Source: Candidatus Lindowbacteria bacterium RIFCSPLOWO2_12_FULL_62_27 | GTDB taxonomy: Bacteria; Lindowbacteria; 2-12-FULL-62-27 | Assembly: GCA_001784175.1 (NCBI GenBank) | Contig: MFPR01000030.1 | Span: forward strand, 109,420-173,419 | Direction of reading: 5' to 3' | DNA length: 64,000 bases | Shown here: positions 9,873 to 31,702 of the stretch, piece by piece | Numbering within the stretch: the first letter of the stretch is position 1 | Layout of the letters: each line of letters begins with the position of its first letter | The notes under the pieces: model-generated | The model's input: the letters and a program-made list of their open reading frames with translations, nothing else | Database searches by the model: none | Told to the model about the DNA's origin: nothing | Made by a program: the position numbers and the translations under genes

Positions 9873-10700
9873 CTACCTGCCGCTTTCGTAAACCATATTG
9901 TGAACGCTGTCGACCCATATCTGGATGCCCCAGAACGTGATCAGGATTCCGATCAGGCCGATGACGGCCAGCGCGGCCAGGATTTCTTTTTTGACGTTGA
10001 AATGTTTTCGCAGGTGCAGATAAAATCCGTAAAAAAGCCACGTGAACAAAGTCCAGGTTTCGACCGGGTCCCAGCTCCACCAGCTCCCCCACAGATAGTG
10101 CGCCCACAAACTGCCGGCGGCGAGCATGAGGGTGTGGCAAACGAATCCGGCGAGAATCCATTGATAGGCTAATTTTTCCCAGGCGGCCTTCCCATCGCCA
10201 TTGGCCCCGCGGGTCAGAATTATCACGGCATATCCCGTTGCGACGATATATGCCGCGTGGGACAGCCAGGCGAAGAAGACATGCAGATACAACCAGCCGC
10301 TTTTGTAAGGCGGGCTTAGGGGTTCGACGCCCGTGTCCTGCAGGACTCCGTATCCCATGAGGCACATCGCAGCTGCCAGAACGAACATCGTGACGAATTC
10401 GGACGAAATGCCCGCAGGCGAACCACGCTTTTTCGAGTAATGGCCGGCCGCCAGATATGACACCATCAAAATCAGGGACAGCGAAAGGGTGTTTTCGTAG
10501 GCCATCAGATACGGCAAATGGCCGGATTCCCATATCCTGACTCCAATCGCGCACGCCTGAAAAATAACGCCGGCATGGATGAACCCGTCGGGCCGGACGC
10601 CCGCAGGTTTCTGAAAAACGGCCCTGGACAGGGTCACAAGCCACGCCATGGCAAAGGCGCCCACCGCACACCAGAAACAGACCGCCTCGATCTTCGTCAT
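9873..10700 (-). CDS. ccsA: CcsA-type cytochrome c biogenesis protein (System II)
   Basis: This 275-residue integral membrane protein has about eight helices and the tryptophan-rich heme-handling signature WGSWWSWDPVETW (204-216). His140, His148 and His189 flank it as candidate heme ligands. CcsA and ResB export heme and ligate it to CXXCH motifs outside the inner membrane. The expected partner, a ResB gene at 12.6 kb, is on the same strand but separated by an opine-dehydrogenase-like gene and a toxin-antitoxin pair. A second, complete pair lies at 29.7-31.5 kb. Confidence 0.92.
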   Translation of the reverse strand: MTKIEAVCFWCAVGAFAMAWLVTLSRAVFQKPAGVRPDGFIHAGVIFQACAIGVRIWESGHLPYLMAYENTLSLSLILMVSYLAAGHYSKKRGSPAGISSEFVTMFVLAAAMCLMGYGVLQDTGVEPLSPPYKSGWLYLHVFFAWLSHAAYIVATGYAVIILTRGANGDGKAAWEKLAYQWILAGFVCHTLMLAAGSLWAHYLWGSWWSWDPVETWTLFTWLFYGFYLHLRKHFNVKKEILAALAVIGLIGILITFWGIQIWVDSVHNMVYESGR

Positions 10701-12641: not shown

Positions 12642-13634
12642 TCAGCAGGTCTCGGCGGCTTGCCTTCTCTTGGCCGCCGGAAACAGCCGCATCAGCATTC
12701 CGGCGAGGACCCCGACACACCCGGCGGCGGCGTAGCCGAATCCGGGGTCGCGCACGACGCTGAACTGCGCCCAACGCCGAACCTCCGGAACGCTCACCGT
12801 CATCGACCGGCCGATGCCAACCGGGATTCCGGGCGATGCCATGTCAGGCAGAACATGCGCCCCCGCGTCGTCTTCGACCAACAGGCGGAAAACCGAGTCG
12901 TCCTTTGACGTCTTTCGGGCTTTGATGCGGATCCCCAGCGCGGGGACATCGAGAAAATCAGATTCGTTGAGGATCAGGTCGAAATTGACGAACGACTTGA
13001 AAACGACGTTGCCTGCCGCATCGTCGATCTGAATTTGCGGAGATATTCCGTAACGCTTGATGTACACCCACGCGCCGCCGACCTTCGCCGGATGGTTTAC
13101 CCTGCACTCGGCCGGCCGGTCCGCGCCGCCGACGGAACGGACCGTGAAGCGGGCGGCAAGATCGAGCACGTTGCCGCACGGGCCCCGGACAACCTTCATT
13201 TCATCCAGCCCGATATTCAGATTCGGCAGGAGCGCCCCGCCCGCTCCGCTCTGGCCTTCCGTGAGAAGAACGCCCGCGTCCGTCTCCCGGAACTTCGCCG
13301 ACAGGATCGCCCCCGTCAACAGGATCGCCATCGACGCGTGCATGATGAGCGATCCGGCCATGACGCGGCTTGGACGCATCTCCCTGTAAAAATGCCGCCA
13401 CAAAACGGCGCCGAGATTGGCGAAAAACAGAACGACGCCCGCAATGAACGCGCCGCTTTTGACAAAGGCGGCCACTTTATCTTGAGGCATGAGCAGAATA
13501 AGGAAAATGAGCATGATCAGAGCGCCGAACATGACCATCGTGGATATTCTGGAGGACAGAGCTGTGATCAACTTCGCTCGACCATCGGTGGGAGACGGGT
13601 TCGATATTGAAAGCGGCATTTTGTCTGTGTTCAT
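12642..13634 (-). CDS. resB: ResB-like cytochrome c biogenesis protein
   Basis: The 330 residues start at MNTDKMPLS, one base after the 9-heme cytochrome gene. Two N-terminal membrane helices (TMVMFGALIMLIFLILLM and FIAGVVLFFANLGAVLWRHF), a third helix, a periplasmic beta-rich domain (about 120-290, with KVGGAWVYIKRYGISPQIQI) and a final helix (GYAAAGCVGVLAGMLM) follow the ResB/Ccs1 layout. It would present apo-cytochrome and heme to CcsA. It is shorter than classical ResB, and its CcsA is separated from it by three inserted genes. Confidence 0.8.
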   Translation of the reverse strand: MNTDKMPLSISNPSPTDGRAKLITALSSRISTMVMFGALIMLIFLILLMPQDKVAAFVKSGAFIAGVVLFFANLGAVLWRHFYREMRPSRVMAGSLIMHASMAILLTGAILSAKFRETDAGVLLTEGQSGAGGALLPNLNIGLDEMKVVRGPCGNVLDLAARFTVRSVGGADRPAECRVNHPAKVGGAWVYIKRYGISPQIQIDDAAGNVVFKSFVNFDLILNESDFLDVPALGIRIKARKTSKDDSVFRLLVEDDAGAHVLPDMASPGIPVGIGRSMTVSVPEVRRWAQFSVVRDPGFGYAAAGCVGVLAGMLMRLFPAAKRRQAAETC

Positions 13635-13635
13635 G

Positions 13636-15273
13636 TCAGTAATTGAAATTATAATTTGCGGCCTTGTTGCCCGAGTGGCCTGACGCGCAACTGAGGTCAT
13701 AGGCGGTCGGGTTGTTATTGGTCCAGCAATCGATTCCGCCCGATCCATCGTCGTAATCGAAGCCGGTCATCGCCGCGCCGTTCATAAAATGCAGGCCCAG
13801 GTAATCTTGACCGCTGCCGACGCCCGCGTTGGAGCCGTGGATGCCGCCGTTGGCGCCGCCGCCGTGACAGTTCAAGCACCAGATCGTGAAGGCGTTGTCG
13901 GTGTTGACGTCATGATTGGTATTGATCGGATGCGTCACCCGGCTTCTTGTCCGATTCGCGCCGCTGGCGTGATAGACGTCATATCTATGGCACTTGAAGC
14001 AGAGCACATGCTCCTCGTTGGTGGCCCCGGCGCCGGCCGGGTTGTAAGTTCGAAGCAGATAGTCAATCGTGTAGTAGTTCCCCCCTGTCGGCTCGCCGTG
14101 GACGTAGTGGCAGTCGCTGCAGGTCACGTAGCTGGTTTCGGACCAGCCGTCCGTGAAAACGGTGTCGCCGATGTTGCCGCTTTGAAGTTTCCCCTTTTTG
14201 ACGATGGGATGAATGGCCAGGTTGTTGGGATTGATCTCCCTCGATATGTCCGTGATGATATTCGGCGCCGCGCCGGACGGAATTCCGGCGGAAAAGGACG
14301 AATGGCAGCGCAGGCACAACTCATACTCGTAATTCGTCCGCGCCGTCGAAAACTGAACCTTCGTCCAGTTGGTCGGCGCCGCCGGAAGGCCGGCGCCGCC
14401 GCCTCCCGAGTCGGGCCAGGCGTTGACCTGCACGCCGTACGTTCCTAGGAGCACGTTGCCGGCTTTCGTGTCGCCCACTGTGTGCGTGCCCCCCTGCGCA
14501 TAATGCGGATTATGGCAGTCCTCACATTCCACGTGCGGATTGCTCGACCAGTTCAGCGTGTCTCCGGCCAAGCCGTGGTAAAACGGCGTGCGGTCGTTCG
14601 CCGCCGCGTCCTCATTGACGGGATGGTTGTAGAAGTTCGTCCCGTCGTTCAGAGACCTGAACTCGTCCTTGATGTCCGTCGCCGCCGGCGCGCCGTCGTG
14701 GCATTCATAGCAGAGATACTCCTCCTGGCGGATCGTGAGGTCGCTCGTGGGCTGGGTATTGGAGGTGTAAGGCCCCCCCGTGAGATTGTCGGCGTCGACG
14801 ATTCTCACGCCGTGCGGATCATGGCAATTGACGCATTCGCCGGTGTTGTTGCCCGAGGCCGGATAGACGACGTTGGCGCTCGTCCAGTGCGAGGACAGTT
14901 CGAACTTGGCCTGGCCCGGCCAGCCCGGAAGATTGGCGTTGGTGTCGGTGTGGCAGACGAAACAGGTCGAATTGACCCACGGAGACGCGGCGGAGGGGGC
15001 CGGCAGCATTTTCGGATAGCCGGCGCCGGCGTTGGGCGTGTCGGTCGAATCCAACGACGCATGCTGAATGTGGCAGTTGCCGCAAAGTCCCGTGTCCCTG
15101 ACGTCCGACGCGTAGCCTCCGATCCATCGAATCTGCGCGCCGGTGTCGGGATCGCCATGCGCGACGTTTTTGATGATGTTCGCCGCCCAAATATCCCGTA
15201 CGGTCAGAAAGCAAACCGCCAAAGAGATCAAGGCCGCCGCCGGGAGGGCGAATTTTTCCCACGACGAATTCAT
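13636..15273 (-). CDS. Nine-heme c-type cytochrome, exported
   Basis: The 545 residues begin with a signal peptide (FALPAAALISLAVCF). Nine CXXCH motifs are present: CGNCH, CFVCH, CVNCH, CYECH, CEDCH, CLRCH, CSDCH, CFKCH and CLNCH. The extreme C-terminus has CASGH, a site that keeps the first Cys and the His but has Gly for the second Cys. Long Gly/Asn/Thr-rich spacers resemble outer-surface multiheme cytochromes of metal reducers. There is no lipobox, so it is periplasmic or secreted. It sits in the operon with the outer-membrane barrel, suggesting it feeds or forms a trans-envelope electron conduit. Confidence 0.93.
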   Translation of the reverse strand: MNSSWEKFALPAAALISLAVCFLTVRDIWAANIIKNVAHGDPDTGAQIRWIGGYASDVRDTGLCGNCHIQHASLDSTDTPNAGAGYPKMLPAPSAASPWVNSTCFVCHTDTNANLPGWPGQAKFELSSHWTSANVVYPASGNNTGECVNCHDPHGVRIVDADNLTGGPYTSNTQPTSDLTIRQEEYLCYECHDGAPAATDIKDEFRSLNDGTNFYNHPVNEDAAANDRTPFYHGLAGDTLNWSSNPHVECEDCHNPHYAQGGTHTVGDTKAGNVLLGTYGVQVNAWPDSGGGGAGLPAAPTNWTKVQFSTARTNYEYELCLRCHSSFSAGIPSGAAPNIITDISREINPNNLAIHPIVKKGKLQSGNIGDTVFTDGWSETSYVTCSDCHYVHGEPTGGNYYTIDYLLRTYNPAGAGATNEEHVLCFKCHRYDVYHASGANRTRSRVTHPINTNHDVNTDNAFTIWCLNCHGGGANGGIHGSNAGVGSGQDYLGLHFMNGAAMTGFDYDDGSGGIDCWTNNNPTAYDLSCASGHSGNKAANYNFNY

Positions 15274-16736: not shown

Positions 16737-17055
16737 GGCGTCTCCGCTTGCGCCACAGATGAACGGCAAACCAGACGGCGATGACGCCGAAGATGGCATG
16801 TTTCCCCACGATCAACGCCATGTGCTCCCGCTCCGCCGTCTGGGTCGTGAAAATCCGCAGGACGCCCCCGACGCCGATCAGGACGAGCGTGGCCAGAAAC
16901 GATTTGAACGTGCAGTCCGTGATTTGCTTTCGGAGTTCCGGGTTGTCTCCCAACTTTTTAATCAAAACGAAATGATAGACAATGACGGCCACAAACAGCC
17001 CGGCGGAAAATTCGTGAAGGTAATGGACGGCGAGCGTATAAGCATCCATGGTCAT
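16726..17055 (-). CDS. Small three-helix membrane protein, His-rich
   Basis: This 109-residue protein has three hydrophobic helices (HEFSAGLFVAVIVYHFVLI, FKSFLATLVLIGVGGVL, GKHAIFGVIAVWFAVHLW). Histidines 11, 14 and 23 in and before helix 1, and two more near helix 3, could ligate heme or metal as in CopD or small cytochrome b proteins. It overlaps the upstream lipoprotein gene by four bases (ATGA) and the radical SAM gene by 11. A quinol-to-conduit electron entry role is inference. Confidence 0.7.
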   Translation of the reverse strand: MTMDAYTLAVHYLHEFSAGLFVAVIVYHFVLIKKLGDNPELRKQITDCTFKSFLATLVLIGVGGVLRIFTTQTAEREHMALIVGKHAIFGVIAVWFAVHLWRKRRRHAS

Positions 17056-18274: not shown

Positions 18275-19122
18275 GGCTTTTTCACCATCTCGATGATTTT
18301 CGCCTTCACTTTGTAATCCAAGATCATCGAGTGAAGTTTGTTTTCAATTTGGAAAATCGTCCGCACATCCCGCAATTTGGCGCCGTCGGCGCCCGCGGCG
18401 CCGTCCAGAAGAGAGCGGCTCTCCTTGATCCATCGGGCGTCGGGGTCATTCAGTCCCAGCGCTTCGCTCTCTTTCAGCATCCTCCGCACCTTCTCGACTT
18501 TTCTCCCCTTGATGGACTTCAAATGAGGCTCTATATTTTCGGCGAATTTTTCGATCAGCCGCTCGCATATTTCGACGGTCAATTCCATCCGGGTTTTTTT
18601 CCGCCGGCCCGGGACATTGTACTGATTCGCGGACGCCGCCGCCGTGGATTCGTCGTAATACAGGATCCGGCCATCCCGGACCCTGTAGATTCGGAGCCCG
18701 ATGGTGATCTGCGGATAATCGTCCACCACCGCAACATCTTCAACGGACACCACGATGAGATAGCCGAGCTTGGCGGCCCGGGCGACGGTGAGAAGCGTTT
18801 CGAGGGCGGGCACATCGTTCCAGCGAAGATACCGCCGGTTGAGCTCGCGAAAAACGTCGTCCGCCGTCGAATAGGGTTCGATCAGACCCTCCCGGATCAG
18901 CACATTTTTGATGATGTCGGTATACTTCCAGTTCTCCTGCGCCATCCGACCCGTTCGGTCGAGAAGCGGAGAAAATCCAATCGTGTTTTCCTCGGAAATC
19001 AGATTCTGGATGTCGTCTTCGAGGTCCAGATAATGTCGGCCGGCTGAATCCTGCCGGCATCCGGCGAAAAGCAGGGCCAGCGCCAGAACGACCGCCTTAT
19101 TCCCAGCGGACAATTTTATCAC
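18271..19122 (-). CDS. CsgG-like lipoprotein 3, with long helical tail
   Basis: In this 283-residue protein the lipobox LLFAGC ends at Cys22. The core repeats the family pattern: IGFSPLLDRTG, helix, KLGYLIVVSVEDVAVV, and ITIGLRIYRVRDGRILYY. Residues 190-283 are a charged helical extension (KSIKGRKVEKVRRMLKESEA) absent from the sister lipoproteins, suited to packing against another subunit. It overlaps the propeller gene by 26 bases and the next lipoprotein by four. Confidence 0.74.
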   Translation of the reverse strand: MIKLSAGNKAVVLALALLFAGCRQDSAGRHYLDLEDDIQNLISEENTIGFSPLLDRTGRMAQENWKYTDIIKNVLIREGLIEPYSTADDVFRELNRRYLRWNDVPALETLLTVARAAKLGYLIVVSVEDVAVVDDYPQITIGLRIYRVRDGRILYYDESTAAASANQYNVPGRRKKTRMELTVEICERLIEKFAENIEPHLKSIKGRKVEKVRRMLKESEALGLNDPDARWIKESRSLLDGAAGADGAKLRDVRTIFQIENKLHSMILDYKVKAKIIEMVKKP

Positions 19123-20572
19123 CCCGCAGTTCCACGAGCTTCGGCTCGATCGTCCATTCCTCCGTGCCGCCGACCGCGGACGTGACGTTCGTTTTTCTTC
19201 GGAAGACGATTTTGAAGAGTTTCCTGCCGTCCGGGGCGCTGACCACCCGGACGCCGGACATGGGTTTGACGCTCACGGCCTCCGGCTCCATTTTTGTCAC
19301 GACGCCATTTTTTAATGGATCCGCCCGGGCGCCCTTGAAAAGGGCGATCAGTTTGACAAGGTCCGGAAAGTCGTCTGTGAAGATGTCCCGGATTCTCTCA
19401 ACGTCGCCTTCCGCCAGCGCCGCCACGGCGTTGTCCATGACCATCAGGGCGTCCCGGTTCTCTTTTTTGGCGGCCAGCCGCTCTTCAAAGGGCGTTTCAG
19501 TCAGATCGCGCTTGGAAATCCTCTCCCGCGTCGACATCCATCCGTCCGTATCAGGCTCAACCGGGATCGACACCAGGGAATCCCGAACCCTTCCCATGCG
19601 CGAGGCAATCCAGACGGCGCCCTGATGAAATTCAACGGCCGACACGGTCGGCGAGATGTCGGTCGATTCAATTTCAAAAAACGCCTCCCGCCTGTTGTCA
19701 TAGCCCACCAGTCCCCGCTCCTCCGTGCCGACCAGGGTAAACGACGCCAGCGGGAAAATTTTCGTCACCGCATAGTCGTATTCGCCGCCCAGCTTGATTC
19801 GGACGGCTTCCCCGGTCTCCGGCTGAAACTCCCAGATTCTTCCCGGGGCGCCGCACCAGAGCCTGCCGCCGACGAATTTGATTCTTCGGATGTCCTCGTC
19901 ACGGAACCCCTTTTCATAGGAGGCCCGGGTAAAGCGCTCCACGTCCGGCTCGAATTTCGTGAGTCCAAGATCCGTGGCCAGCCAGACAACCCCTCCCTCG
20001 ATTTCGATGTCGTTCAGGCCGTTTGACCCCAGTCCATCCTCGGCCGTGTAGAGAGTCCAGGTGTGAAATCCCCTGTCGTAACGGATCAGGCCCCCCGGCG
20101 TGTCGACTCCGAACGGATTGTCATGGGCAAGGGCCAGAAAGAGGTACCGGTCCGTCCATTCGATGTCCAGCAGGGGATAACCCTTCCAGTTCGCCTGCCC
20201 GGGCCGCTGGGAGAAATTCTCCGTGAACAGGTCAAAAACGCACATTCCCGTGTCCGTCGCCAGATACAGGTAACGGTCGATGATTTTCATGTCGTTGATT
20301 TTGTATTGGCCGAACCCCTCGGGGAGATCATAGTGTGTCCATCGGTCCGATGGGACTTCGTAGCGGTCCATTTTGCCGTTGGCGTATCCGATCCATAACG
20401 ACTCTTTGCCGGATGCCATCGCCGTGATGACTTCCTGGACCCGTCTCGATGACAGATTGTACGTTCGCCATTCCGCGCCATACCCGGCGCCCGCGAGCGC
20501 GGCCACGGCCGCCACGCAAAGCACGACGGCCGCCAAAGACGCCGGCCGGCCTCCGGAAAACCGCGCGGTCAT
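19097..20572 (-). CDS. Exported beta-propeller protein (two-component-regulator-propeller type)
   Basis: A signal peptide (VVLCVAAVAALAGAGYGA) is followed by about seven WxxY/LWIGxxxG-type blades: SLWIGYANGKMDRY, YLYLATDTGMCVFD, VVWLATDLGLTKFE, RLWCGAPGRIWEF, FTLVGTEERGLVGY and VWIASRMGRV. The last 130 residues form a separate alpha/beta domain ending in a GGTEEWTIEPKLVELRG barrel-like stretch, which may be NTF2-like. There are no heme motifs. It is probably a periplasmic or surface scaffold for the neighbouring cytochromes and lipoproteins. It overlaps the upstream gene by four bases. Confidence 0.75.
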   Translation of the reverse strand: MTARFSGGRPASLAAVVLCVAAVAALAGAGYGAEWRTYNLSSRRVQEVITAMASGKESLWIGYANGKMDRYEVPSDRWTHYDLPEGFGQYKINDMKIIDRYLYLATDTGMCVFDLFTENFSQRPGQANWKGYPLLDIEWTDRYLFLALAHDNPFGVDTPGGLIRYDRGFHTWTLYTAEDGLGSNGLNDIEIEGGVVWLATDLGLTKFEPDVERFTRASYEKGFRDEDIRRIKFVGGRLWCGAPGRIWEFQPETGEAVRIKLGGEYDYAVTKIFPLASFTLVGTEERGLVGYDNRREAFFEIESTDISPTVSAVEFHQGAVWIASRMGRVRDSLVSIPVEPDTDGWMSTRERISKRDLTETPFEERLAAKKENRDALMVMDNAVAALAEGDVERIRDIFTDDFPDLVKLIALFKGARADPLKNGVVTKMEPEAVSVKPMSGVRVVSAPDGRKLFKIVFRRKTNVTSAVGGTEEWTIEPKLVELRGDKIVRWE

Positions 20573-21192
20573 TTCCCGCCTCCGTCGCCGCCGTATCCGC
20601 GTCTGGCAGCCCGGCCTCGTTTGAACATGGCGCGGACGGTCTTCGCCGTGAGCTTCTGCACGAGCCGTTTCATCGACGTCGTTTCGCCGATGCCGAACGT
20701 CGGCAGGTCGCTTGTGCCGACCACGCCGATGTCGGCGGTCCAGATGGTGACGCCGGATTCGATGTCGATGATTTTCGAGACTACATTGATTTCGGGCTTG
20801 CCCTCGTCGTACACTTGAATCGTACCGTACACGATGATGTCGGCCCCGAATTGCTCCTGAATCTTCTTCATCTCCTCGCCGGTAAGAAACCGGCCGGCCT
20901 CGATCCTCTTCTCCCGCAAGAAAGCCTCAATCTGGCTCTCCGGCACGACGTCGAAAATCCGGCTGTTTAGAATCTCGACGACCAGGGACTCCTTGATGAT
21001 GACCGGCGCCTTGGCGTTGCCGGCCAGGTTGTAGAACGGCAGTACGACCGCTTTCTTCGCTGCCGTCATATCCGCCAGCGGATGCACGTAGACGTGATTG
21101 GTCGTCCCACAGCCGCACAGGAGGGCCGCCAGACACACCCAGGGCAGAATTCCAGATCGCACGGCGCCCCATCCTCCCTTGATCAGAACCAT
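20569..21192 (-). CDS. CsgG-like lipoprotein 4
   Basis: The 207 residues have lipobox LLCGC (Cys28). KKAVVLPFYNLAGN, VEILNSRIFDVVPESQIEAFL, QFGADIIVYGTIQVYDEG and INVVSKIIDIESGVTIWTAD are a textbook CsgG/TolB-N order, the clearest of the four related lipoproteins here. The C-terminus is basic and glycine-rich (RGRAARRGYGGDGGGK). It overlaps the barrel gene by ten bases and the propeller gene by four, so its synthesis is coupled to the outer-membrane protein. Confidence 0.78.
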   Translation of the reverse strand: MVLIKGGWGAVRSGILPWVCLAALLCGCGTTNHVYVHPLADMTAAKKAVVLPFYNLAGNAKAPVIIKESLVVEILNSRIFDVVPESQIEAFLREKRIEAGRFLTGEEMKKIQEQFGADIIVYGTIQVYDEGKPEINVVSKIIDIESGVTIWTADIGVVGTSDLPTFGIGETTSMKRLVQKLTAKTVRAMFKRGRAARRGYGGDGGGK

Positions 21193-22889
21193 AGATTGTA
21201 CGCGCTGCTCAGTTGGTTCGAATCCCGGACGCCCGGCAGGTGGTTCAATCCGTAGCTGAGCGTGAGGCGCGATTTCTCGACATCCCGGGACCGGACTTCG
21301 ATTTTCAGCGTGCCCGCGTTATTTTTCGCGATGTCGATCAAGTTCAGCGTGGAGGCGAGCGTCAGCTTGTGGGTGAGGGCAAACGAGAGCGAATGGACGA
21401 CGCCGACCCTCACCGAGGTCGTGCTGGATTTGCCGGCGGCGGCGCGCGCCCTCGTATGGTCGAGGTAGGAGGTCACGGAGAGGAATCGGCCAAGGTTCAG
21501 TCGGACCTCGGCGGACTGGTTGAAGGATTTCCGGCCGGCGTCTTTCGAGTGGTTCAGATAGCCGCTGATCGTCAGAGGCGCCTTGCTGACGGAGAACGTC
21601 CCCCCCATCAGGTAGTCGCGGGTCAGATTCGCGCCCGACCCGCTCCGCTCCTTCCGGATTCGGTTGCCCAGATCGAACGCGGTCCGCTTGCTGAAGACAT
21701 AACGCAGTTTATTCTCCATCAGGTTGCTGCGTCCGGAACTGCGCTCCTCGAAATTCCGCGACACGGATTCGACGTACTTGACGGAAAGCGTCGCAATGTC
21801 CCGGTAGAGGCCGGCCGTCAAGAGATGGCTGAATCCGCCGGACTCCAGCGTCTTTATTTTCCCGTTTGCGCCGTTGTATCGCGCGTCCCGGTTCGCGTCG
21901 AGCCGGACACTGACGGACGGCAGGGGGTCCAGGGCGAGGCTGATGCCGGCGGCGTTGTTTTTCTGCGCCGTGGGCAATCCCATGCCGATGCGGACCTGAT
22001 TGAAGCTTCCGGACCACCGGGCGTTCTCGACGACGGTTCCCTGGAGAGAAACGGCATTCTCGATCTGGCGGGATTTGCCGCCGGCGTGGGCGTCCGATAG
22101 GGCGTAGCCCATCGTGTTCGATAACGACAGTTTCGGCAGGAGCGCGGCGTTGAAGAGGAGATTGACGAAATGCCTCGTGGACCGCGAGGTGGTCCGCGAG
22201 GATTGTGTGGCGTTCGACAGATTGTATTTGATGTTCAGGCTCGAGTTGGGCATCAACAGAAATCCGCGGTTGTAGCCGTAATCGAACATCAATCCTCGCG
22301 TGGTTTCATGGGTCGCGCGGCCGGCGGCAAGATTGTCGAAGATCCGGTTCTGGAAGGTATACCGGAGCGTAACGGCTTTGATCTGGTAAGCCGAATTCAT
22401 CAGGAGTTCCTTCGATTCCGAGGATTTCCGGCTGAGATTGAAATTCTGCGCCATGCGGGTGCTGAAATCCAGGGAGGGCAGGTATCGCGGCATGGCCAGT
22501 CCCAGGGTCGATGTGAAATTCCGGTCCAGGCGCTGGTTGCCTTCGTCCGTGGCCGACTGAAACTGCCGGATGCCCAGGGCCCATTTGTACTTTGATTTGG
22601 CCTCCGTCGCGTCCAGAAAAGGAGAGATGCGGTAGGTGGACGCGGTTTTCTGATTTGCGCCGCTGGCCACGAATTGCGCCGCGGCGCCGATGTTGATCTT
22701 CTTGTTCAGCCTCCGGTCGGCGCTGAGATTGTAAGTCCGCAAAAATCCCTCCGACATCCGCTCTTCGGCCCACGACTTGTCGTATCTCCAGTTGACGCTG
22801 CCGGTCAGCGGACGCGCGGATGCGCCGAGAATCAAGGTTCCCAGAAGGAACAGGACGGACAGAGACACGCCCAAAAGAGCCGAATTCAT
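21183..22889 (-). CDS. Outer-membrane beta-barrel of a putative porin-cytochrome conduit
   Basis: The 568-residue protein has a signal peptide (SLSVLFLLGTLILGASA). The rest is an unbroken run of 10-residue amphipathic strands separated by turns and charged loops, for example KSKYKWALGIRQFQSA and SLNIKYNLSNATQ. The C-terminus is SSAYNLWF, the terminal aromatic signature recognised by the BAM machinery. There are about 22-26 predicted strands, the size of porins that sheath multiheme cytochromes (MtrB/OmbB-type). No sequence motif proves that family; the flanking cytochromes are the argument. It overlaps the ResB-domain lipoprotein gene by four bases. Confidence 0.8.
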   Translation of the reverse strand: MNSALLGVSLSVLFLLGTLILGASARPLTGSVNWRYDKSWAEERMSEGFLRTYNLSADRRLNKKINIGAAAQFVASGANQKTASTYRISPFLDATEAKSKYKWALGIRQFQSATDEGNQRLDRNFTSTLGLAMPRYLPSLDFSTRMAQNFNLSRKSSESKELLMNSAYQIKAVTLRYTFQNRIFDNLAAGRATHETTRGLMFDYGYNRGFLLMPNSSLNIKYNLSNATQSSRTTSRSTRHFVNLLFNAALLPKLSLSNTMGYALSDAHAGGKSRQIENAVSLQGTVVENARWSGSFNQVRIGMGLPTAQKNNAAGISLALDPLPSVSVRLDANRDARYNGANGKIKTLESGGFSHLLTAGLYRDIATLSVKYVESVSRNFEERSSGRSNLMENKLRYVFSKRTAFDLGNRIRKERSGSGANLTRDYLMGGTFSVSKAPLTISGYLNHSKDAGRKSFNQSAEVRLNLGRFLSVTSYLDHTRARAAAGKSSTTSVRVGVVHSLSFALTHKLTLASTLNLIDIAKNNAGTLKIEVRSRDVEKSRLTLSYGLNHLPGVRDSNQLSSAYNLWF

Positions 22890-23341
22890 TTGAGCGCGCC
22901 CGTATCCGGCAATTGGATTCGCCGAAGGTAAAAGGCGATGGGCAGCTTGTTGTCATTGCCGAATCGGGGATATCTCTGAAAAATCCATTGCCGGTATTTC
23001 AGATCTGCGCCGACAAAACAGGACAGATAGGCCGCCGGATTGTCCGGCTTCTCCGAACGCGCTTGAACCGCCCGCGTTTTGTCCGAAAAGGAGAAACTCG
23101 GCAGAAATTCGGTGATGAGCAGGGTGAGATCTGTGCCGGGGATTTTTACTTTTTTACCGAAGGGCAGGGCATACACATTTTGAATCGACGGGTCCTGCTT
23201 GCTGACAACGGCAATTTCATAGGAGGCCTTTTTGTAAAGGGGCGGAGTTGCCCCGGGCTTGTCGCAACCCCAGGCGACAAACAGCGCGAAGCACCCGACG
23301 ATTCGTATGGACGTATCCCCAAACCACACACGTTCCTCCAT
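22886..23341 (-). CDS. Lipoprotein resembling the periplasmic end of ResB (DUF2155-like)
   Basis: The 151-residue protein starts after AAAGGAG, with lipobox ALFVAWGC (Cys26). VYALPFGKKVKIPGTDLTL, LPSFSFSDK, NPAAYLSCFV and YRQWIFQRYPRF match, in the same order, a segment of ResB-type proteins. The ResB at 30.4 kb has NPAVQLEIV and RRWLFAKFPDFG. DUF2155 proteins have a similar plan. It is therefore a freestanding, lipid-anchored version of a cytochrome-maturation domain, first gene of the conduit operon, and may help load heme locally. Confidence 0.65.
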   Translation of the reverse strand: MEERVWFGDTSIRIVGCFALFVAWGCDKPGATPPLYKKASYEIAVVSKQDPSIQNVYALPFGKKVKIPGTDLTLLITEFLPSFSFSDKTRAVQARSEKPDNPAAYLSCFVGADLKYRQWIFQRYPRFGNDNKLPIAFYLRRIQLPDTGALK

Positions 23342-23527: not shown

Positions 23528-24568
23528 CTACTTGTTGTGACACACCTCGCACGCCTCCGGCGCGCCGGCCAGTGTGCCCGTATCGGGTCTGAAACGAAGG
23601 CTGGCGACGTTGAAGCTTCCATGAGCGCGATGGCAGGTCAGACAGAAAACGGCCTTGTTCCCCGAGCTGGTCGTCAGAAGGGGATAGGTGTCCGACCCGC
23701 CGTAGTTCGTGTAGTTGGTCTGAACGGCCGCCGTCAGCTGAAAGTCCACGGGGTGGTGCGTATTGGCGCCGGCGGAATTGTCAACCAGTCCGTCGGCGTC
23801 ATAATTGCCCGTCACCGCCCCTTGGATGTTCTGGGTCGATGGATCAAAGGTGTTGCTCGGCCCGAACTTCTCGTGGCAGTCCTGACAGTACAGCGTGAAA
23901 TCGGCCGTGTACTGGCCGGTGTCTTCCCAAACGCTGGTGTCCGTATAGCCGTTGGACTGCGCGAGGACGGTGCATCCAGAAATCCCGGCGTTGACGCTGT
24001 TTGGATCGGGCAGGAGATTTCGGTAATTCGTGTTTCCGTGCTGGTTGTGGCAAGTGGCGCAGGTCATGTAGTTCGTGCCGTTGTCCCAGTTGCCGCCGCC
24101 TGAACCCGGGGGACTGGGCTGGGCGGCCGCGGCCACATGCAGATTATGCCCGCGCGTGTCTATCCAGTCGTTGCCTCCGCTGACGCGGTCATAGACGCCG
24201 ACGCCCGCGCCGTAATAGCCGTAGCCTTCAAATCCGAATCCTCCGGCGGCCGGCGTGTCTCCGCCCGTCGTTTTGTCCGCAACGCATGGCGCGCCGCTCG
24301 ACGCGTAGTTCGGCCCGTCGGCGGAATGGCAGTTCAGGCAGAGGGTGTTGGTGTTCGTGGCTTTGAGCAGATTCGTAAATCCGGCGCCCCCATTGTAGGT
24401 CGTGACCCCGCCGCTGTCGCTGGCATGCATCACATGACAGTCGGAGCAGATGAGCGGATCGCTGTGGTAGTTGGCCGACGCCCGGCCTCCTTCGTCCTCG
24501 AAGGACACGGCGGCGACGAAGCCCGCGACAACAATCGCCACCAAGGCGAATTTCAAACATCTCCTCAT
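23528..24568 (-). CDS. Six-heme c-type cytochrome, exported
   Basis: The 346 residues start at MRRCLKFALVAIVVAGFVAA, seven bases after GAAAGGAGC, in preference to an ATG 11 codons upstream. Six CXXCH motifs are present: CSDCH, CLNCH, CATCH, CQDCH, CLTCH and CEVCH, the last only two residues from the C-terminus. Spacers are rich in Gly, Asn, Thr and Asp. Additional His residues (HVMHAS, NQHG, RAHG) three to four residues after the motifs are likely distal ligands. It has no lipobox. It is probably a periplasmic or extracellular carrier that works with the 42-heme protein next door. Confidence 0.92.
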   Translation of the reverse strand: MRRCLKFALVAIVVAGFVAAVSFEDEGGRASANYHSDPLICSDCHVMHASDSGGVTTYNGGAGFTNLLKATNTNTLCLNCHSADGPNYASSGAPCVADKTTGGDTPAAGGFGFEGYGYYGAGVGVYDRVSGGNDWIDTRGHNLHVAAAAQPSPPGSGGGNWDNGTNYMTCATCHNQHGNTNYRNLLPDPNSVNAGISGCTVLAQSNGYTDTSVWEDTGQYTADFTLYCQDCHEKFGPSNTFDPSTQNIQGAVTGNYDADGLVDNSAGANTHHPVDFQLTAAVQTNYTNYGGSDTYPLLTTSSGNKAVFCLTCHRAHGSFNVASLRFRPDTGTLAGAPEACEVCHNK

Positions 24569-24632
24569 GGTCAATGCTCCTTTCACTTGATGAAGTTCCA
24601 TCTATGCCCAGATCCCCCTGCGCGGGAGATCG

Positions 24633-25514
24633 TTACTTGATCCGGTAAACGGTGACGGCTTTGAGAACATTGGATGACACGTACATGATGTTGTTCACAA
24701 ACGCGGCCGAGCGGAATCCCGGCAGAAAAAGCTCCGTCTCGAATTCGCCCGTCGGATTGAACACCTCAAGCGTCCTTTTGCCGACGTCGGAAACCCATAC
24801 GTTTCCGTCGGCGGAGACATACACGCGATTGATGAGCGAAAACGTCCCCGGTTTGCCGCCCGCCCGGCCGAATCTGTGAATCAGGACGCCTTGATCGGCG
24901 TCATAGATCATCACGGAATAACCGCCCTGATCCGCGACGTAGACCTTGCCGCCCTGATAGACGCAGTCGCTGATGCGCCGGAATCCCTCCTTCATAAAGA
25001 CGACGTCGCCGTTCAAGGTGACGCCGTAGGCGGCCTGCGAATGGTAGTCGGCAAAGAAGACCGCTTTGCGATCGGGGCTGTAATGTCCGCCCGTCACCGC
25101 CGTCCCGGACCCATTTCGAAGATGTTTCTTTTCAATGAAATTCCCGCGGTAATCATAGAGGGACAATTCCCCGGCCCGGGACACGAGGCCGATATCGCCG
25201 TTCGGCGCCGCAAAAAGTACGGCCGGATCGGCCACATCGACTTTGAAGTAATACTTGAGGCGGCCGGACGGGCTGAGAATGTAAACCATCGAGGTGGAAC
25301 TCTCATAGACGAGCAATTCCCACACGCTCGTGTCCAGATAGACGAGCGAGGGATCCTCGTAATCGGCGCCGAGTGAAAAATTGTGAATGACGCTGACGAC
25401 CGCCGGCGCAAACGCGGAGGCCGGCGACGGCGACAGGGCAAGCGCCAGGAACGCGATCATGACAGCGCGGACGGGGATCAGGCGATCAGCCCTTGTGGCA
25501 TTGCTGACAGACAT
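24633..25514 (-). CDS. Exported NHL-type beta-propeller protein
   Basis: This 293-residue protein has a hydrophobic leader ending ALALSPSPASAFA. Repeats of the NHL/six-bladed type follow: ADPAVLFAAPNGDIGLVS, GGKVYVADQGGYSVMIYDAD, FSLINRVYVSADGNVWVSDVGKRTLEVFNPTG. Propellers of this kind are common next to multiheme cytochromes in metal-reducing bacteria, where they are thought to be assembly or surface factors. The listed start lies inside the 42-heme gene; a later ATG at 25460 is possible but would leave the leader without positive charge. Confidence 0.78.
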   Translation of the reverse strand: MSVSNATRADRLIPVRAVMIAFLALALSPSPASAFAPAVVSVIHNFSLGADYEDPSLVYLDTSVWELLVYESSTSMVYILSPSGRLKYYFKVDVADPAVLFAAPNGDIGLVSRAGELSLYDYRGNFIEKKHLRNGSGTAVTGGHYSPDRKAVFFADYHSQAAYGVTLNGDVVFMKEGFRRISDCVYQGGKVYVADQGGYSVMIYDADQGVLIHRFGRAGGKPGTFSLINRVYVSADGNVWVSDVGKRTLEVFNPTGEFETELFLPGFRSAAFVNNIMYVSSNVLKAVTVYRIK

Positions 25515-28500
25515 CCGGCTGCCCCCTTTTCAAAATGCCTTTGAGGTCGGACCCGTGAGGAGAATGGCAGGACACGCATTCGACCGCCCGACCATCCGGG
25601 GTCTTGATGTCTACCGGGTGGACGTGCTCTCCCTCGAATTTGTGGCAGGACTCGCATACCTTCGTGACCGTCGGGGCTTTCAGGAGCGGTCTGGCCTCGG
25701 CGTAATGGGGCGTGTGACATTTCACGCAGTCGCCCTTTTTCGCCGGCGGATGCCCGATTTTGGCCGCCGCAATGTCGCGGCGCTGGGCGGTATGACAGGT
25801 AAAACAGAGTTCGGGCGGGCGGGCGCGAAGGTTATGCTCGATGTCCGACCCATGCGGCGCGTGGCATTCGACGCACCCATTCTTCTCGATCGCTCCGTGC
25901 GCGGCTTTGCCCGCGTTCGCCGCCGGAGATTTTTGCTCGTGGCAGACGAAGCAGGCATTCTTGTTGATCGTGACGGCCTTGCCCTTGACGACCGGCTCCT
26001 CATGACAGTTGGTGCACAGGCCTTTTTTGACCGGATAATGGGCCGTGGGTTTCAGGAGTTTCTTCTCGGCGCCGCCGTGAGGGGTGTGGCACATGGAACA
26101 GCGCGCGCCGGTGACATCGTTGTTGACATGCGCCAGTTTGAATTTGGCTTCGGTCGCATCGTGGCACGTCAGGCACAGTTCGGCCACGGCGGCGTTGAGA
26201 AGCGGCTTCTGGCCGGAGCCGTGAACCGCATGACAGGTCAGACACGCGCCCTCGGCCGCCGGCGGATGGGGCACCGGGGACTGCGAAACGATTTTCGCGA
26301 TGCCGGCGTGACAGCTCAAGCATAATTTCCCGTCGTCCGCCGACAGCTTCAATCGGTTCTTCGTGTCGCCGGCGTGAGGTTCGTGACAGGACAGGCATTC
26401 GCCCTTCTTCACCGGCGGATGTTCGGAGGCGAGGGAGGACGCGAGTCGAATTTTCTCGTGACAAGACAGGCAGAGTTTTGTCCTGGGGGCCGCCAGATAC
26501 GGCTGGTCATTCGAAGCATGCGGGTTGTGGCATTTCGCGCAGTCTTCCTTGACGGGCGCATGCACGAATTTTTTCTTGAGCCAGTCGGCTTGCTGGTCGT
26601 GGCAGGTGGCGCAGACCTCCGTCCGCCGCTCCGGCAGGCCGAGCGCCGATGAATCGGTCACCTCGCCGTGGCAATTTTCGCAGCCACGCTCCTCGAAGGG
26701 CGGATGACGATGTTTCTTCAGAAGGCCCTTGTCCCCGGAGTAATGCGGCGTATGGCAGTAGGCGCAGCGCGTATTTTTGGTGAGCATATTCTTGTGTTTG
26801 TCCTGAAGATCGCCGGCGTCGAGCTTGTGGCAATCGGCGCAGAGTTCTCCCTCGGGTTTGACCAGCATCCATTTGCGGCCCGATGCGTGGGTGGCGTGGC
26901 AGGTCACGCACATCTGCTTTTTCACAGGGAAATGGGTGACGCCTGTGTCGGGGAAATTGAACTTATCCTGATGGCAATCCTGGCACGGCACGGAAGACTT
27001 CAACGTCAGCAATTTCGCTTTTTCGGAGCTGTGCGGCGCGTGGCATCGAGAGCATTGGCCCTCCTTAAACGGCGGATGGCCATCCGGGTCTTTCAACTGT
27101 TCCTTCACTTTGGCGTGACAGGTCGCACAGACCTCCACAGGCTTCGTCCGGAACATCTTGTCTTCGGAACTTTGATGCGGGTCGTGGCAGCGCGCGCACT
27201 GGCCCTCGGACACCGGGCGATGCACGACGGAAAGCTGAAAGGGCCCCTGCTTGTGGCAGGTGAAACAGAGCGCCGGAGTCGGCCTGGCGAGGAGGGACGC
27301 CTGGTTCGAAGTATGGGATGCATGGCATTTGATACACTCGCCGTTCTTGAAGGGCTGATGGGGCGTCTTGTTGGGATCCGGTTTCTTGTCGTCATGGCAG
27401 TTCTGGCACAGCGCCGGCGGCGGCTGGACGAGCAGCTTTGGATTGTTGGAGGTGTGGGACTGATGACAGTTCATGCAGTTGTCCTCCATCGGCGGATGGA
27501 CGACGCGGCCGGTAAAGTTTTCCTTTTTGTGGCATCGCAGACACAGTTCGGACGCGGGCGCGCGCAGAAGATGGTCCGTCGAACTGCCGTGCCCGAGGTG
27601 ACAGAGGATGCAGTCGCGATTCTGATAAGGCCGGTGGGTCGATTTCTCTCCGGAAGCATATTTGTGGCAGTCCACGCAGACTCCGCCGCTCTCTTTAGCC
27701 AGAAACCAGCTCTGATTCGATCCATGAGGCGCGTGGCATTTCACGCACTGGCCCCGCTTCGCCGGATCGTGCGCGCTTTTGCCTTTCGCCGTGTTCTCTT
27801 TGATTTTGGCGTGGCAGGAAAGGCAAATCTCCCCGCCATCCGCCGGCACGGAAAATTTCGCCGCGCCTTCCGACAGTTTGTGGCAGGCCGCGCATTTGCC
27901 CTCCTTGACCGGAGCGTGGAGATTGACGAGGAGGTTTTCATTTTTGGAGGCGTGCGGGCTGTGGCAGGTCAGACAATTCCCGCTTTCGATCTTCTGCCCG
28001 CTATGTTTTCCGACAAGGTCGTCGTTGAAGGTGTGACATTTGAGACACAGATCGGGCATGGGTTTGTTCAGCATGCCGGCCGACTGCTCGCCATGGGGAT
28101 TGTGGCAGACCACGCACTGGCCGTCCGAAAGATGGGGATGAACGTGCGGCAGCTCCATGTCCTTGCTTGTGTTGTCATGGCAGTCGACGCATTTCTTGCC
28201 GGGATCGACGAGACGCTTGTCGTCCGAGACGTGCGCATCGTGGCAGGCAAGGCATTTGCCGAGGGCCACGGGACTGTGGACGTTTGGACCGCGGGGAATA
28301 TTGTTGTGGCAGGTAGAACAGAGTTCGGCGGGCGGGAATTTGAGGGAAAGGCGGGGCAGAAGCCCGTGCTGTTTATGGCAGGCCAGGCAATCATTTTTCA
28401 GGACTGGGTCATGCTTGAAAGCGGACTCCTTAAAACGTGTTTTCGTTTTTCTGTGGCATTCAAAACAAAGCGCCCCGCCGGATTCACCTCTATTGACGTT

Positions 28501-28665
28501 CGTGGCGGTCGGCGTGCAGGACACAAGAAGCACCGAACACACGAGGAAGCAGGCAAGGGCCATTCGCCGCAAATGCGATGGATGAAGGCATAGAGTTCCA
28601 CCCTCCGTCTTTTTCCCGTCAGAGAACTCATGCCGATCGGATCGGCGGAAGAAACAGAAACGCAT
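25486..28665 (-). CDS. 42-heme c-type cytochrome lipoprotein
   Basis: I count 42 CXXCH motifs in 1059 residues, one about every 25. Their spacing alternates, with two motifs per unit: L-C-xx-CH, then HxPVKxGxCxxCHxPHGS, then LL and a Pro-x-x-L-C. This is the doubled-CXXCH pattern, repeated about 20 times. Each second heme is followed by PHGS/PHAS, supplying a distal His. The N-terminus has a lipobox (VLLVSC, Cys50) and no other hydrophobic segment, so the protein is lipid-anchored at the outer membrane or surface. The start at 28665 follows GGGAGG; a shorter TTG or ATG start near 28563-28572 is possible. It is a likely molecular wire for extracellular electron transfer. The last codons overlap the propeller gene. 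Confidence 0.93.
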   Translation of the reverse strand: MRFCFFRRSDRHEFSDGKKTEGGTLCLHPSHLRRMALACFLVCSVLLVSCTPTATNVNRGESGGALCFECHRKTKTRFKESAFKHDPVLKNDCLACHKQHGLLPRLSLKFPPAELCSTCHNNIPRGPNVHSPVALGKCLACHDAHVSDDKRLVDPGKKCVDCHDNTSKDMELPHVHPHLSDGQCVVCHNPHGEQSAGMLNKPMPDLCLKCHTFNDDLVGKHSGQKIESGNCLTCHSPHASKNENLLVNLHAPVKEGKCAACHKLSEGAAKFSVPADGGEICLSCHAKIKENTAKGKSAHDPAKRGQCVKCHAPHGSNQSWFLAKESGGVCVDCHKYASGEKSTHRPYQNRDCILCHLGHGSSTDHLLRAPASELCLRCHKKENFTGRVVHPPMEDNCMNCHQSHTSNNPKLLVQPPPALCQNCHDDKKPDPNKTPHQPFKNGECIKCHASHTSNQASLLARPTPALCFTCHKQGPFQLSVVHRPVSEGQCARCHDPHQSSEDKMFRTKPVEVCATCHAKVKEQLKDPDGHPPFKEGQCSRCHAPHSSEKAKLLTLKSSVPCQDCHQDKFNFPDTGVTHFPVKKQMCVTCHATHASGRKWMLVKPEGELCADCHKLDAGDLQDKHKNMLTKNTRCAYCHTPHYSGDKGLLKKHRHPPFEERGCENCHGEVTDSSALGLPERRTEVCATCHDQQADWLKKKFVHAPVKEDCAKCHNPHASNDQPYLAAPRTKLCLSCHEKIRLASSLASEHPPVKKGECLSCHEPHAGDTKNRLKLSADDGKLCLSCHAGIAKIVSQSPVPHPPAAEGACLTCHAVHGSGQKPLLNAAVAELCLTCHDATEAKFKLAHVNNDVTGARCSMCHTPHGGAEKKLLKPTAHYPVKKGLCTNCHEEPVVKGKAVTINKNACFVCHEQKSPAANAGKAAHGAIEKNGCVECHAPHGSDIEHNLRARPPELCFTCHTAQRRDIAAAKIGHPPAKKGDCVKCHTPHYAEARPLLKAPTVTKVCESCHKFEGEHVHPVDIKTPDGRAVECVSCHSPHGSDLKGILKRGQPDVCQQCHKG

Positions 28666-28936: not shown

Positions 28937-29575
28937 TTATTTGGTTTCGGGTTCAGGCGCCGACTCTGGTTTGTATTCCGGGGCGGCACCGGGTGCGGCC
29001 GGCAGTTCGCCTTCGTGTCCCGGCTGATAGTGCGCGATCTTCTTCCACGCCGCTTGGGCCTCAAATCCGACTGCCGTATCCCACGTTGGCGCCTTTTCGT
29101 TGTGGCATCCGGCACAGACCGCCGCCGTCGGATGGACCAGACCGTTCGCCACCGCCGCCTGAGAATCCTTCATAACGCTCATCTTCGCGTAATCCGCGCC
29201 GGCCCCGTGACAGTGTTCGCACTGGACGCCGTCCTCCATCCTGAACTTCTCTCCCAGCAGCGACGTGTCCGCTTTGAAGGCGGTCACATGACAGACCAGG
29301 CACTCGTCCGATTTCTGGGGGTCGCCCTCCAGTCCGGCCTTCTTCGCAATCTCTTTGGCCGTGTCCGTGCCGAGCGTCTCGTAAGCCCGCGCGTGGCCGC
29401 TCTCTTTCCAGATCTTATACTGCGCCCCTTTGGCATCGGACTTGTGACACATTCCGCATTTGTCCGCGCCGACAAACCCGTGTTCGACGTTGGCCGGCGC
29501 CGTCTCCTCCGCGTTCGCCTTCAAGGACCCCATGAACCCAACCATCACCAGCGATACAAACAGAAATCTTTTCAT
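28937..29575 (-). CDS. Tetraheme cytochrome c554-like protein
   Basis: The 212 residues begin with a signal peptide (FLFVSLVMVGFMGSLKANA). Four CXXCH motifs are present: CGMCH, CLVCH, CEHCH and CAGCH. The segments GFVGADKCGMCHKSD, IWKESGHARAYETL and GVQCEHCHGAGADY are those of the cytochrome c554/c' family (tetraheme electron carriers). The last 30 residues are a Pro/Glu/Ala-rich tail. It is periplasmic. It is transcribed separately from the 42-heme gene and is a good candidate for delivering electrons from the inner membrane. Confidence 0.88.
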   Translation of the reverse strand: MKRFLFVSLVMVGFMGSLKANAEETAPANVEHGFVGADKCGMCHKSDAKGAQYKIWKESGHARAYETLGTDTAKEIAKKAGLEGDPQKSDECLVCHVTAFKADTSLLGEKFRMEDGVQCEHCHGAGADYAKMSVMKDSQAAVANGLVHPTAAVCAGCHNEKAPTWDTAVGFEAQAAWKKIAHYQPGHEGELPAAPGAAPEYKPESAPEPETK

Positions 29576-29676: not shown

Positions 29677-30450
29677 TTACGCGTAGCTGTGCAGCCCGGA
29701 CAGCAGATAATTCACGCCGAAATAGGTGAAGAGCACGCAGGCGAATCCGCCGATGGCCAGCCACGCGAACCGGGCGCCTTCCCATTTTCGGACGCGGCGC
29801 AGGTGGATGGCGAGGGCGTAGATGATCCACGTGATGAGCGACCAGGTTTCCTTCGGATCCCACGACCAGTACGTGCCCCAGGCTTCGTTCGCCCACACGG
29901 CGCCGAGGACAATACCGACTGTCAGGAGAATGAATCCGAGGATGATGGCGCGAAAGGTGAAGGCATCGAGGGCTTTTTCAAGGCCGTTTTTTTGGATGAG
30001 AAACACGATGGATGAAAGCGTGGCCAGGCCGAGCGCCGCGTAGGCCATGAGCGTGGTGGAGACATGAAAGAGCAGCCAATTCGATTGGAGCGCCGGAACG
30101 AGCGGGCGGATGGATTTGTCGAGGAGCGCGGCGATGCCGAGAAAGAGGAGCGCCAGGATCGCGGTCCAGAATCCGAGGCCGGGGATGGACCACTTGATGG
30201 AAAAAATAAAATGAAAGAGCAGGATCGACCACGTGAGGCTCACCAGGGATTCGAACTGGTTGGACAGCGGAGCGAACCCGCCGACGTTCCACCGCGTTGC
30301 CAGAAAAACGGTCAGGAGAATCCAGCTCACTCCCAGCGAGAGGACAGCCAAAAAATCAAAAACAGGCCGGGCGACCAGGCGGCGAATGGCGCCGAAAAGC
30401 AGAGTCGCGAGGAGACACCCAAAGGCCGCGTTCAGAAGGAGGGGGCTCAC
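29677..30450 (-). CDS. ccsA: CcsA-type cytochrome c biogenesis protein, second copy
   Basis: The start is placed at the GTG that overlaps the resB stop by four bases (GTGA), giving 257 residues; the open frame extends further but only as a shadow of resB. Seven to eight membrane helices are followed by the signature WGTYWSWDPKETW. It is the direct partner of the resB gene upstream, forming a complete System II heme-ligation pair next to the tetraheme and 42-heme genes. The terminal segment LFTYFGVNYLLSGLHSYA is typical of the family. Confidence 0.92.
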   Translation of the reverse strand: MSPLLLNAAFGCLLATLLFGAIRRLVARPVFDFLAVLSLGVSWILLTVFLATRWNVGGFAPLSNQFESLVSLTWSILLFHFIFSIKWSIPGLGFWTAILALLFLGIAALLDKSIRPLVPALQSNWLLFHVSTTLMAYAALGLATLSSIVFLIQKNGLEKALDAFTFRAIILGFILLTVGIVLGAVWANEAWGTYWSWDPKETWSLITWIIYALAIHLRRVRKWEGARFAWLAIGGFACVLFTYFGVNYLLSGLHSYA

Positions 30451-31541
30451 CGGGATTTTGGATTTTGGATATTGGATTTCGGATTGCCGGCAAAAGACCA
30501 GACGAGGCCGAGCGGAAGGAGCGCAAACCCGGCGTAGACCATCGGCACGCTGGGGTCTTTGGCCACCTGGATGGAACTGAACGCCGGATCGTTCGGATCG
30601 TAGCCGGACTGGTAGAAGGCATAGCCTTTGTAACGGAACGGCTCGTTGACATGAATGGTTTTCTGGGCCGCGACCCGGCCATTTTCCAGAATGCTCAGAT
30701 GGCTGCGGAATTGCCGGATGTCGCCGGGCCGGAATTCGTAAACGGCTTGCAAAGTCGCGCAACAGGACATTTCCTTTTCCGGTCCGTGGGAAGAGGCGTC
30801 GGTGGCGTTGTGCCGGCCGAAATCCGGGAATTTGGCGAACAGCCAGCGCCTGGCGGCGTGGCCGCTTTTCACGATTTCGAGTTGCACAGCGGGATTGACC
30901 GGCTGGTCGGAAACGTTTGCCGGGCCGTTTTCGCCCATCATGAAATGGGAAAAGACCGCCAGAACGCGAACGTCGGCGTCGAGCGGATTTAATCGATACG
31001 TTCCGGGTCCGGCGACTTGCAGAGACTCGGATTTCCCGGAGGCGTGATCCGAAAAATGCAGGAGATGAACGCCGCCGGCGCGGTCAATCGTGAAATGATC
31101 GAGCCTGATTTGGAATGGAATATTCTTTGTTCGGGTTTCGTCCAGATGAAAACTGCCCCTGACCTGGCCCGCCCGCATGGGCAGGATGCCATGATCCGCC
31201 CACATCCACCGGACGGCGGCGCCGAGGAGAATCAGGAGCACCGCCGCATGAGTCACAAAAACTCCCGGACGCGACCGGATGGTCCGGATGCGCATGAGGG
31301 AACAGGCGGCGAGGTTGACGGCGAGCGCGGCAAGGAGAAGATTGAACCACGCGGTGGAAAAGAGCCGGTCGAGGCCGAGACCGAGAACGAGTCGCGATCC
31401 TGTGGGGCCCAGCATTTTTGGATAGACCTCCGGCGACTCGCCCTGCGGAATCGCTGCGCCGATGACGCAGGCCAAAACGATCAAGCCCAGGAGCCAGAAG
31501 AGCAGCCGGATGGAAGCCAGTTTCGAAAGGATCGAATTCAT
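30447..31541 (-). CDS. resB: ResB cytochrome c biogenesis protein
   Basis: The 364 residues start at MNSILSKLASIRLLFWLLG (an in-frame GTG 11 codons earlier is possible). Three N-terminal helices, a large periplasmic domain (about 120-330, with NPAVQLEIV, RRWLFAKFPDFG and FRYKGYAFYQSGYDPNDPA) and a final helix (VYAGFALLPLGLVWSF) form the complete ResB layout. The last 11 residues are encoded by a heptamer repeat at 30453-30487 and are probably a recent, non-functional extension. It is translationally coupled to ccsA. Confidence 0.9.
   Translation of the reverse strand: MNSILSKLASIRLLFWLLGLIVLACVIGAAIPQGESPEVYPKMLGPTGSRLVLGLGLDRLFSTAWFNLLLAALAVNLAACSLMRIRTIRSRPGVFVTHAAVLLILLGAAVRWMWADHGILPMRAGQVRGSFHLDETRTKNIPFQIRLDHFTIDRAGGVHLLHFSDHASGKSESLQVAGPGTYRLNPLDADVRVLAVFSHFMMGENGPANVSDQPVNPAVQLEIVKSGHAARRWLFAKFPDFGRHNATDASSHGPEKEMSCCATLQAVYEFRPGDIRQFRSHLSILENGRVAAQKTIHVNEPFRYKGYAFYQSGYDPNDPAFSSIQVAKDPSVPMVYAGFALLPLGLVWSFAGNPKSNIQNPKSR
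30453..30487. repeat. Heptamer tandem repeat (GGATTTT)n at the end of resB
   Basis: Nearly five tandem copies of a seven-base unit are present: GGATTTT, GGATTTT, GGATATT, GGATTTC, GGATT. In the resB frame they encode NPKSNIQNPKS. This peptide is a familiar product of short dispersed repeats in many bacterial genomes, so the resB C-terminus has been shaped by repeat expansion rather than selection on the protein. Confidence 0.7.
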
Positions 31542-31702
31542 GAGCCAACCTACTGCAAAAGCTGTTCCGGACAATCAGGAGAAGGGCGGGAAATGCGTAA
31601 TCTCTCGGAATGCAGGTGGATGGCGTTTCGGGCCGATGGCGGGGATCGTCCTGGGATGTAATGAATCAGGGCAAACAATATTCCGGTTTAAAACAATTCA
31701 GC

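Follow-up and report, generated by a model that had tools for sequence, protein, structure and literature searches.

A single-chain 42-heme cytochrome with a constant heme register: a probable fused form of the 26- plus 16-heme pair acting as an electron conduit

Operons encoding a 26-heme and a 16-heme cytochrome together with a six-bladed propeller protein and a peptidyl-prolyl isomerase (PPIase) have been reported in SEEP-SRB1, Geobacter and others, and the two cytochromes were described as carrying signal peptides to the periplasm and no membrane attachment (Skennerton 2017, PMC5539420). In G. sulfurreducens, the 26-heme GSU2495 (PMC12977616, PMC2996986) and GSU2494 are encoded by oscI and oscJ, respectively, of the osc (OmcS companion) cluster, and both are listed as periplasmic (PMC13194489); in the work of Shen 2025, as cited there, the osc operon is proposed to fold, secrete and shape OmcS nanowires. 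The route of electrons across the periplasm and the outer membrane to cytochrome nanowires is unsettled, and for the 26-heme and 16-heme members of nanowire clusters we found no described role. Here we describe a gene whose product carries 42 CXXCH motifs in a single chain. It lies in a 64,000-nucleotide stretch of DNA (the window; positions 109,420 to 173,419 of contig MFPR01000030.1) from Candidatus Lindowbacteria bacterium RIFCSPLOWO2_12_FULL_62_27. This gene is probably the fused form of the known 26 + 16 pair, and its product would act as a bis-histidine electron conduit of fixed length. What is noteworthy is the invariance of the 42 heme sites and not the count alone.

The gene is on the minus strand (Table 1), where its frame is open throughout with no internal stop, whereas the plus-strand frame of the same interval contains stops. 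An initial annotation, made from the letters of the window, had counted 42 CXXCH motifs in 1059 residues at these coordinates, and our recount agrees; shuffled sequences of the same composition contained 0.6 motifs on average and five at most (2000 trials). The regular doubled-CXXCH pattern of a very heme-rich electron-transfer protein, also part of that annotation, was supported as well. CHxxH-type and plain hemes alternate along the chain with a mean spacing of ~24 residues, the step after a CHxxH-type heme being 23 residues almost always and the remaining steps ~25. The alternation is interrupted at hemes 9/10, 26/27 and 35/36, which leaves blocks of 9, 17, 9 and 7 hemes. The triplets that close the 9-, 17- and 9-heme blocks (hemes 7-9, 24-26 and 33-35) resemble each other, and in the internal comparison the similarity between heme units is highest at offsets of 9, 17 and 26, a pattern that may reflect an ancestral cassette of nine hemes. 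The computed mature mass is ~110 kDa, or 136 kDa with 42 hemes added. The gene is present once in its 4.4 Mb genome and accounts for every one of the 19 strong Paired_CXXCH matches there.

We searched 192 genomes, in which the full-length relatives (in G011 and G027) have exactly 42 motifs each and several genomes have two adjoining genes with 26 and 16 motifs. The phyla of G011, G027, G043, G170 and G157 were then searched and the neighborhoods fetched. The phylum sets comprised 3, 132, 80, 4, 9 and 39 genomes, and as these six sets are unequal in size, at least six phyla are represented. The window and 50 related loci made an alignment set of 51 complete loci; loci cut by contig ends were left out, as was G311, whose 18 + 23 motifs are broken into two frames. 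Every one of the 51 loci has the full set of 42 proximal histidines. One full CXXCH is missing in three loci (at heme 23, 25 or 8), with the proximal histidine kept there. At ≥90% conservation, the 51-locus alignment has 40 distal-histidine columns and the 44-locus alignment 41, and nearly all of the aligned sequences inspected just before H1016 have an extra histidine there, offset by one or two columns; taken together, the histidines are therefore enough for bis-histidine ligation of all 42 hemes. Conservation of 90% is reached in 195 columns, of which 84 are cysteine and 82 histidine, so that 166 are a heme cysteine or histidine. Outside the conserved columns the median identity is 20%, and the window protein has 18%. 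Loop lengths differ among the 51 loci, and no heme site has been gained or lost. A number of 42 that is invariant at ~20% background identity suggests that selection may hold the length or the heme number fixed.

The 42 hemes are in one chain in 27 of the 51 loci and in two adjacent genes of 26 and 16 hemes in the other 24. In the window they lie in a single open reading frame without a stop, and the gene is therefore the fused variant rather than the 26 + 16 pair itself. In every split locus the break falls at the 26/27 boundary, which is also one of the three sites where the alternation is interrupted; hemes 1-26 match the 26-heme gene of the 24 split loci one to one, and hemes 27-42 match the downstream 16-heme gene likewise. 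The fused forms bridge this junction with a linker of 17-27 residues, much like the 23 residues of the step from heme 9 to heme 10. An insertion between hemes 21 and 22 accounts for a gap of 43 residues in one clade, which is therefore not the fusion linker. On a tree of 44 loci (quick search with SH-aLRT, an approximate likelihood ratio test), in which the window sequence is a long branch of unsure placement, the fused or split label takes five changes, at least four of which are forced by well-supported branches. That fusion or fission has recurred at a single position without altering the total of 42 is the strongest indication here of end-to-end action by the 26- and 16-heme proteins, and the fusion in the window's lineage and in others is evidence that the two cytochromes join in this way.

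The repetitive look of the gene could raise the suspicion of an assembly artefact or a recent tandem expansion, and the initial annotation had proposed growth by unit duplication and had named a repeat-collapsed or repeat-expanded assembly as a way in which the count could fail. Neither was borne out. At the DNA level, identity between internal doublets is 59% in the closest pair and 41% in the median pair, and at the protein level the median pair is 24% identical. With internal DNA identity of at most 59%, collapse or expansion in the assembly is unlikely, and the low identity between doublets also indicates that the array is old. The same count of 42 recurs in unrelated genomes, and the duplications inside the array are older than the divergence of the phyla. 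Apart from the repetitive look nothing favors an artefact or recent growth, and we regard both as refuted by the internal divergence and the identical 42 sites in 50 other loci, leaving them a negligible probability.

We propose that the 42-heme protein is exported, that ResB/CcsA machinery encoded nearby probably loads it with its 42 hemes, and that the window protein would be anchored by an N-terminal lipid. With bis-histidine ligation at every heme or almost every one, the protein would conduct and not catalyse. The 26- and 16-heme parts would be placed in series, making a single conduit of 42 hemes and defined length for electrons moving across the envelope, toward or away from the putative outer-membrane and nanowire components whose genes lie alongside. 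This reading is supported by the near-confinement of conservation to the heme ligands and by the fixed heme number and order combined with the recurrent joining and splitting at one place. The hemes of OmcS are spaced by ~7.8 Å. At that spacing, 42 hemes in a linear array would reach ~33 nm, about the width of the envelope. A more specific proposal, to which we give somewhat less than even credence, is that the array is a molecular ruler: 42 bis-histidine hemes in a constant order, in one chain or as 26 + 16 joined end to end, would make an unbroken path across the envelope, with a length dictated by the gap to be bridged and kept across at least six phyla. Because the fused form shares the 42 sites, and fusion or fission has recurred at one junction, we predict that both proteins together make one continuous wire.

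The resemblance to the operon of Skennerton and to OscI/OscJ lies in the 26 + 16 order, the same register in the split loci, a beta-propeller neighbor and a candidate OmcS-like cytochrome nearby. The window protein differs from them in being fused with a short linker and in having a lipobox, the PPIase is not beside the gene, and the genome belongs to a small, different phylum. Other large cytochromes show that the initial annotation overstated the rarity of the protein. The large multiheme cytochromes of ANME have up to 86 hemes (PMC9012536); they likewise carry tens of hemes per chain, but are archaeal and have S-layer domains. In the PCC3 systems of Gallionellaceae, periplasmic members with 21-27 hemes are proposed to span the periplasm, and extracellular cytochromes have 10-35 hemes (PMC10734462). 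Compared by description, these are similarly heme-rich, but their heme number varies, in contrast to the constant 42 here. At least 26 other loci also carry the same fused protein. Constancy sets the protein apart from other large cytochromes, in which close relatives differ in heme count. We found no description of a fused 42-heme chain or of a constant 42 in the literature searched, in which subscription journals are mostly outside coverage, and a search of the contig collection with the 42-heme protein returned remote matches only, mostly to much smaller heme proteins.

The decaheme families are a further point of comparison. Chain A of PDB 6r2q, which we take to be MtrA of the MtrCAB structure, aligns with the 42-heme protein over ~150 residues in the same doubled-CXXCH register (E 6e-16), but has 10 hemes against 42. 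The molecule name of this chain reads cystathionine beta-synthase, although its sequence is that of a CXXCH-rich cytochrome. No match to PF11854, the family of the MtrB/PioB porin that an MtrCAB-type porin-cytochrome system would include, was found in the window's genome. The NCBIfam decaheme models TIGR03508 (DmsE/MtrA) and NF041028 (GSU2203) pass their cut-offs only because the whole-protein scores add up 10 stretches. We ruled out membership in either family, which needs ten hemes in ~300-340 residues, compared with 42 in 1059. With these summed scores, automatic annotation would name the protein a decaheme cytochrome.

The position of the protein in the envelope bears on the alternatives. 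The lipobox at Cys50 noted in the initial annotation is present and is retained with either start, Met1, which has a plausible Shine-Dalgarno sequence (GGAGG) upstream, or Met35, with a signal peptide closer to the usual length but no evident ribosome site. Among the relatives, a lipobox was seen only in the split forms of G170 and G172, most of the others having cleavable signals of the signal peptidase I type; a lipobox-type match in G358 looks like a part of such a cleavable signal. Lipid anchoring thus appears to be a local feature, and the protein is probably periplasmic or anchored at the outer membrane. The outer-surface location that the initial annotation gave for a linear or filament-like wire fits poorly with these signals and with the periplasmic listing of GSU2495 and GSU2494. 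In the corresponding explanation, the lipid anchor would sit, after flipping, on the outer face, and the 42-heme chain would project ~30 nm out of the cell as a non-polymeric antenna, as has also been proposed for large extracellular PCC3 cytochromes. The lipobox with its +2 threonine and the extracellular cytochromes proposed in PCC3 would agree with it, but the lipobox is missing in most relatives, which makes it less likely, the 26- and 16-heme proteins of Skennerton have no membrane attachment, and the extracellular PCC3 members vary in heme count while the 42-heme protein is constant. We therefore consider this surface location improbable.

Slightly less probable still, in our judgment, are two functions other than directional conduction. 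The protein could be an electron store, a heme-rich periplasmic buffer of the kind discussed for large cytochromes (PMC10734462), and the nearly complete bis-histidine ligation at ~24 residues per heme would suit such a capacitor; a store, however, should tolerate the gain or loss of heme pairs, of which there is none in the 51 loci. An assembly or scaffold factor for nanowire secretion, belonging to the osc export machinery and transferring electrons only secondarily, has about the same standing. The osc-like location of the gene is in line with it, as is the action of osc genes in OmcS folding and secretion (Shen 2025 as cited in PMC13194489), but conservation lies nearly all in the heme ligands, pointing to electron transfer.

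Several points weigh against the fixed-length conduit. Because the 42-heme protein itself served as the query for collecting the loci, very divergent members with other counts could have escaped. A case of 26 + 12 hemes has been reported, on a broken contig (PMC12246660). The split 26 + 16 form in G. sulfurreducens is most likely OscI/OscJ beside the OmcS nanowire genes, a homology drawn from heme counts and gene context. The published operon has a PPIase, and the split loci have one before the 26-heme gene, but none was found among the window neighbors scanned; three Rotamase_2 (PPIase) genes are present elsewhere in the genome. AlphaFold2 gave no usable model of the 42-heme protein, with a pLDDT (predicted local distance difference test) of 30 from the single sequence and 39 with its own 8-heme segments aligned.

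Within the window's phylum, the other two genomes, G001 and G002, gave no 42-heme match, and in G002 a single contig (L047) encodes two relatives with 10 hemes. A horizontal gain of the 42-heme gene is therefore possible, although both genomes are <90% complete.

The genes around the 42-heme gene are listed in Table 1 with their conservation among 47 loci of relatives. As a control, genes in the 8-12.6 kb flank had homologues in 0 of the 47 loci.

Table 1. Features of the 42-heme gene and its neighborhood in the window (positions of the window; homologue counts refer to the 47 loci of relatives).
Feature	Position	Strand	Remarks
Tetraheme cytochrome c554-like protein	28937..29575	-	upstream, 271-nt gap; PF13435 E 3e-21
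ResB-like cytochrome c maturation protein	30447..31574	-	PF05140 E 1e-36
42-heme c-type cytochrome, single chain	25486..28665	-	1059-residue open reading frame
Predicted signal peptide core and lipobox of the 42-heme protein	28516..28563	-	Met35 to Cys50, LVSC50, +2 residue Thr; not conserved in most relatives
Junction of hemes 26/27 in the 42-heme protein	26611-26670	-	residues ~666-685
Six-bladed beta-propeller/NHL-like secreted protein	24633..25514	-	directly downstream; weak Pfam NHL/DUF5128; 29-nt overlap with the 42-heme gene; homologues 21/47
OmcS-like hexaheme cytochrome, candidate nanowire subunit	23528..24601	-	matches 33/47
Small predicted lipoprotein	22886..23341	-	homologues 6/47, several adjoining the 26- or 42-heme gene
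Candidate outer-membrane beta-barrel, 568 residues	21183..22889	-	outer-membrane-protein-type C-terminus YNLWF, C-terminal Phe; highest beta-alternation of the neighborhood (z 3.4); no Pfam match
CsgG/GNA1162-like lipoprotein	20569..21192	-	Pfam PF05643/PF03783; homologues 38/47
Second beta-propeller-like protein	19097..20572	-	weak PorZ propeller match
Three further small secreted proteins/lipoproteins	18271-19122, 17681-18274, 17052-17684	-	last weakly CsgG-like, homologues 27/47
Radical-SAM protein with B12-binding domain	15276-16799		inside the cytochrome cluster; no homologue in the 47 loci
9-CXXCH cytochrome, 545 residues	13636..15273	-	homologues 3/47
Second ResB-like protein	12642..13748	-	PF05140 E 1e-11
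CcsA-type cytochrome c assembly protein	9873..10700	-	PF01578 E 4e-33

The hexaheme cytochrome had no significant match to OmcS in a direct PDB search; it is 29% identical over 352 residues to an OmcS homologue of G027, which itself matches OmcS (6ef8) at 5e-55. Genes for cytochrome c maturation, two ResB-like and one CcsA-like, flank the cluster on its two sides, which suggests a maturation system dedicated to it.

Further very large cytochromes are encoded near the 26 + 16 pair in two relatives, with 38 CXXCH in 1639 residues (L042:11777-16693) and 31 CXXCH in 1232 residues (L040:109-3804). A metagenome-assembled genome of Saprospiraceae has three adjacent heme genes of a different repeat type (L002:4678-12749); their products contain 23, 13 and 64 CXXCH motifs, and the 64-motif protein is 1605 residues long.

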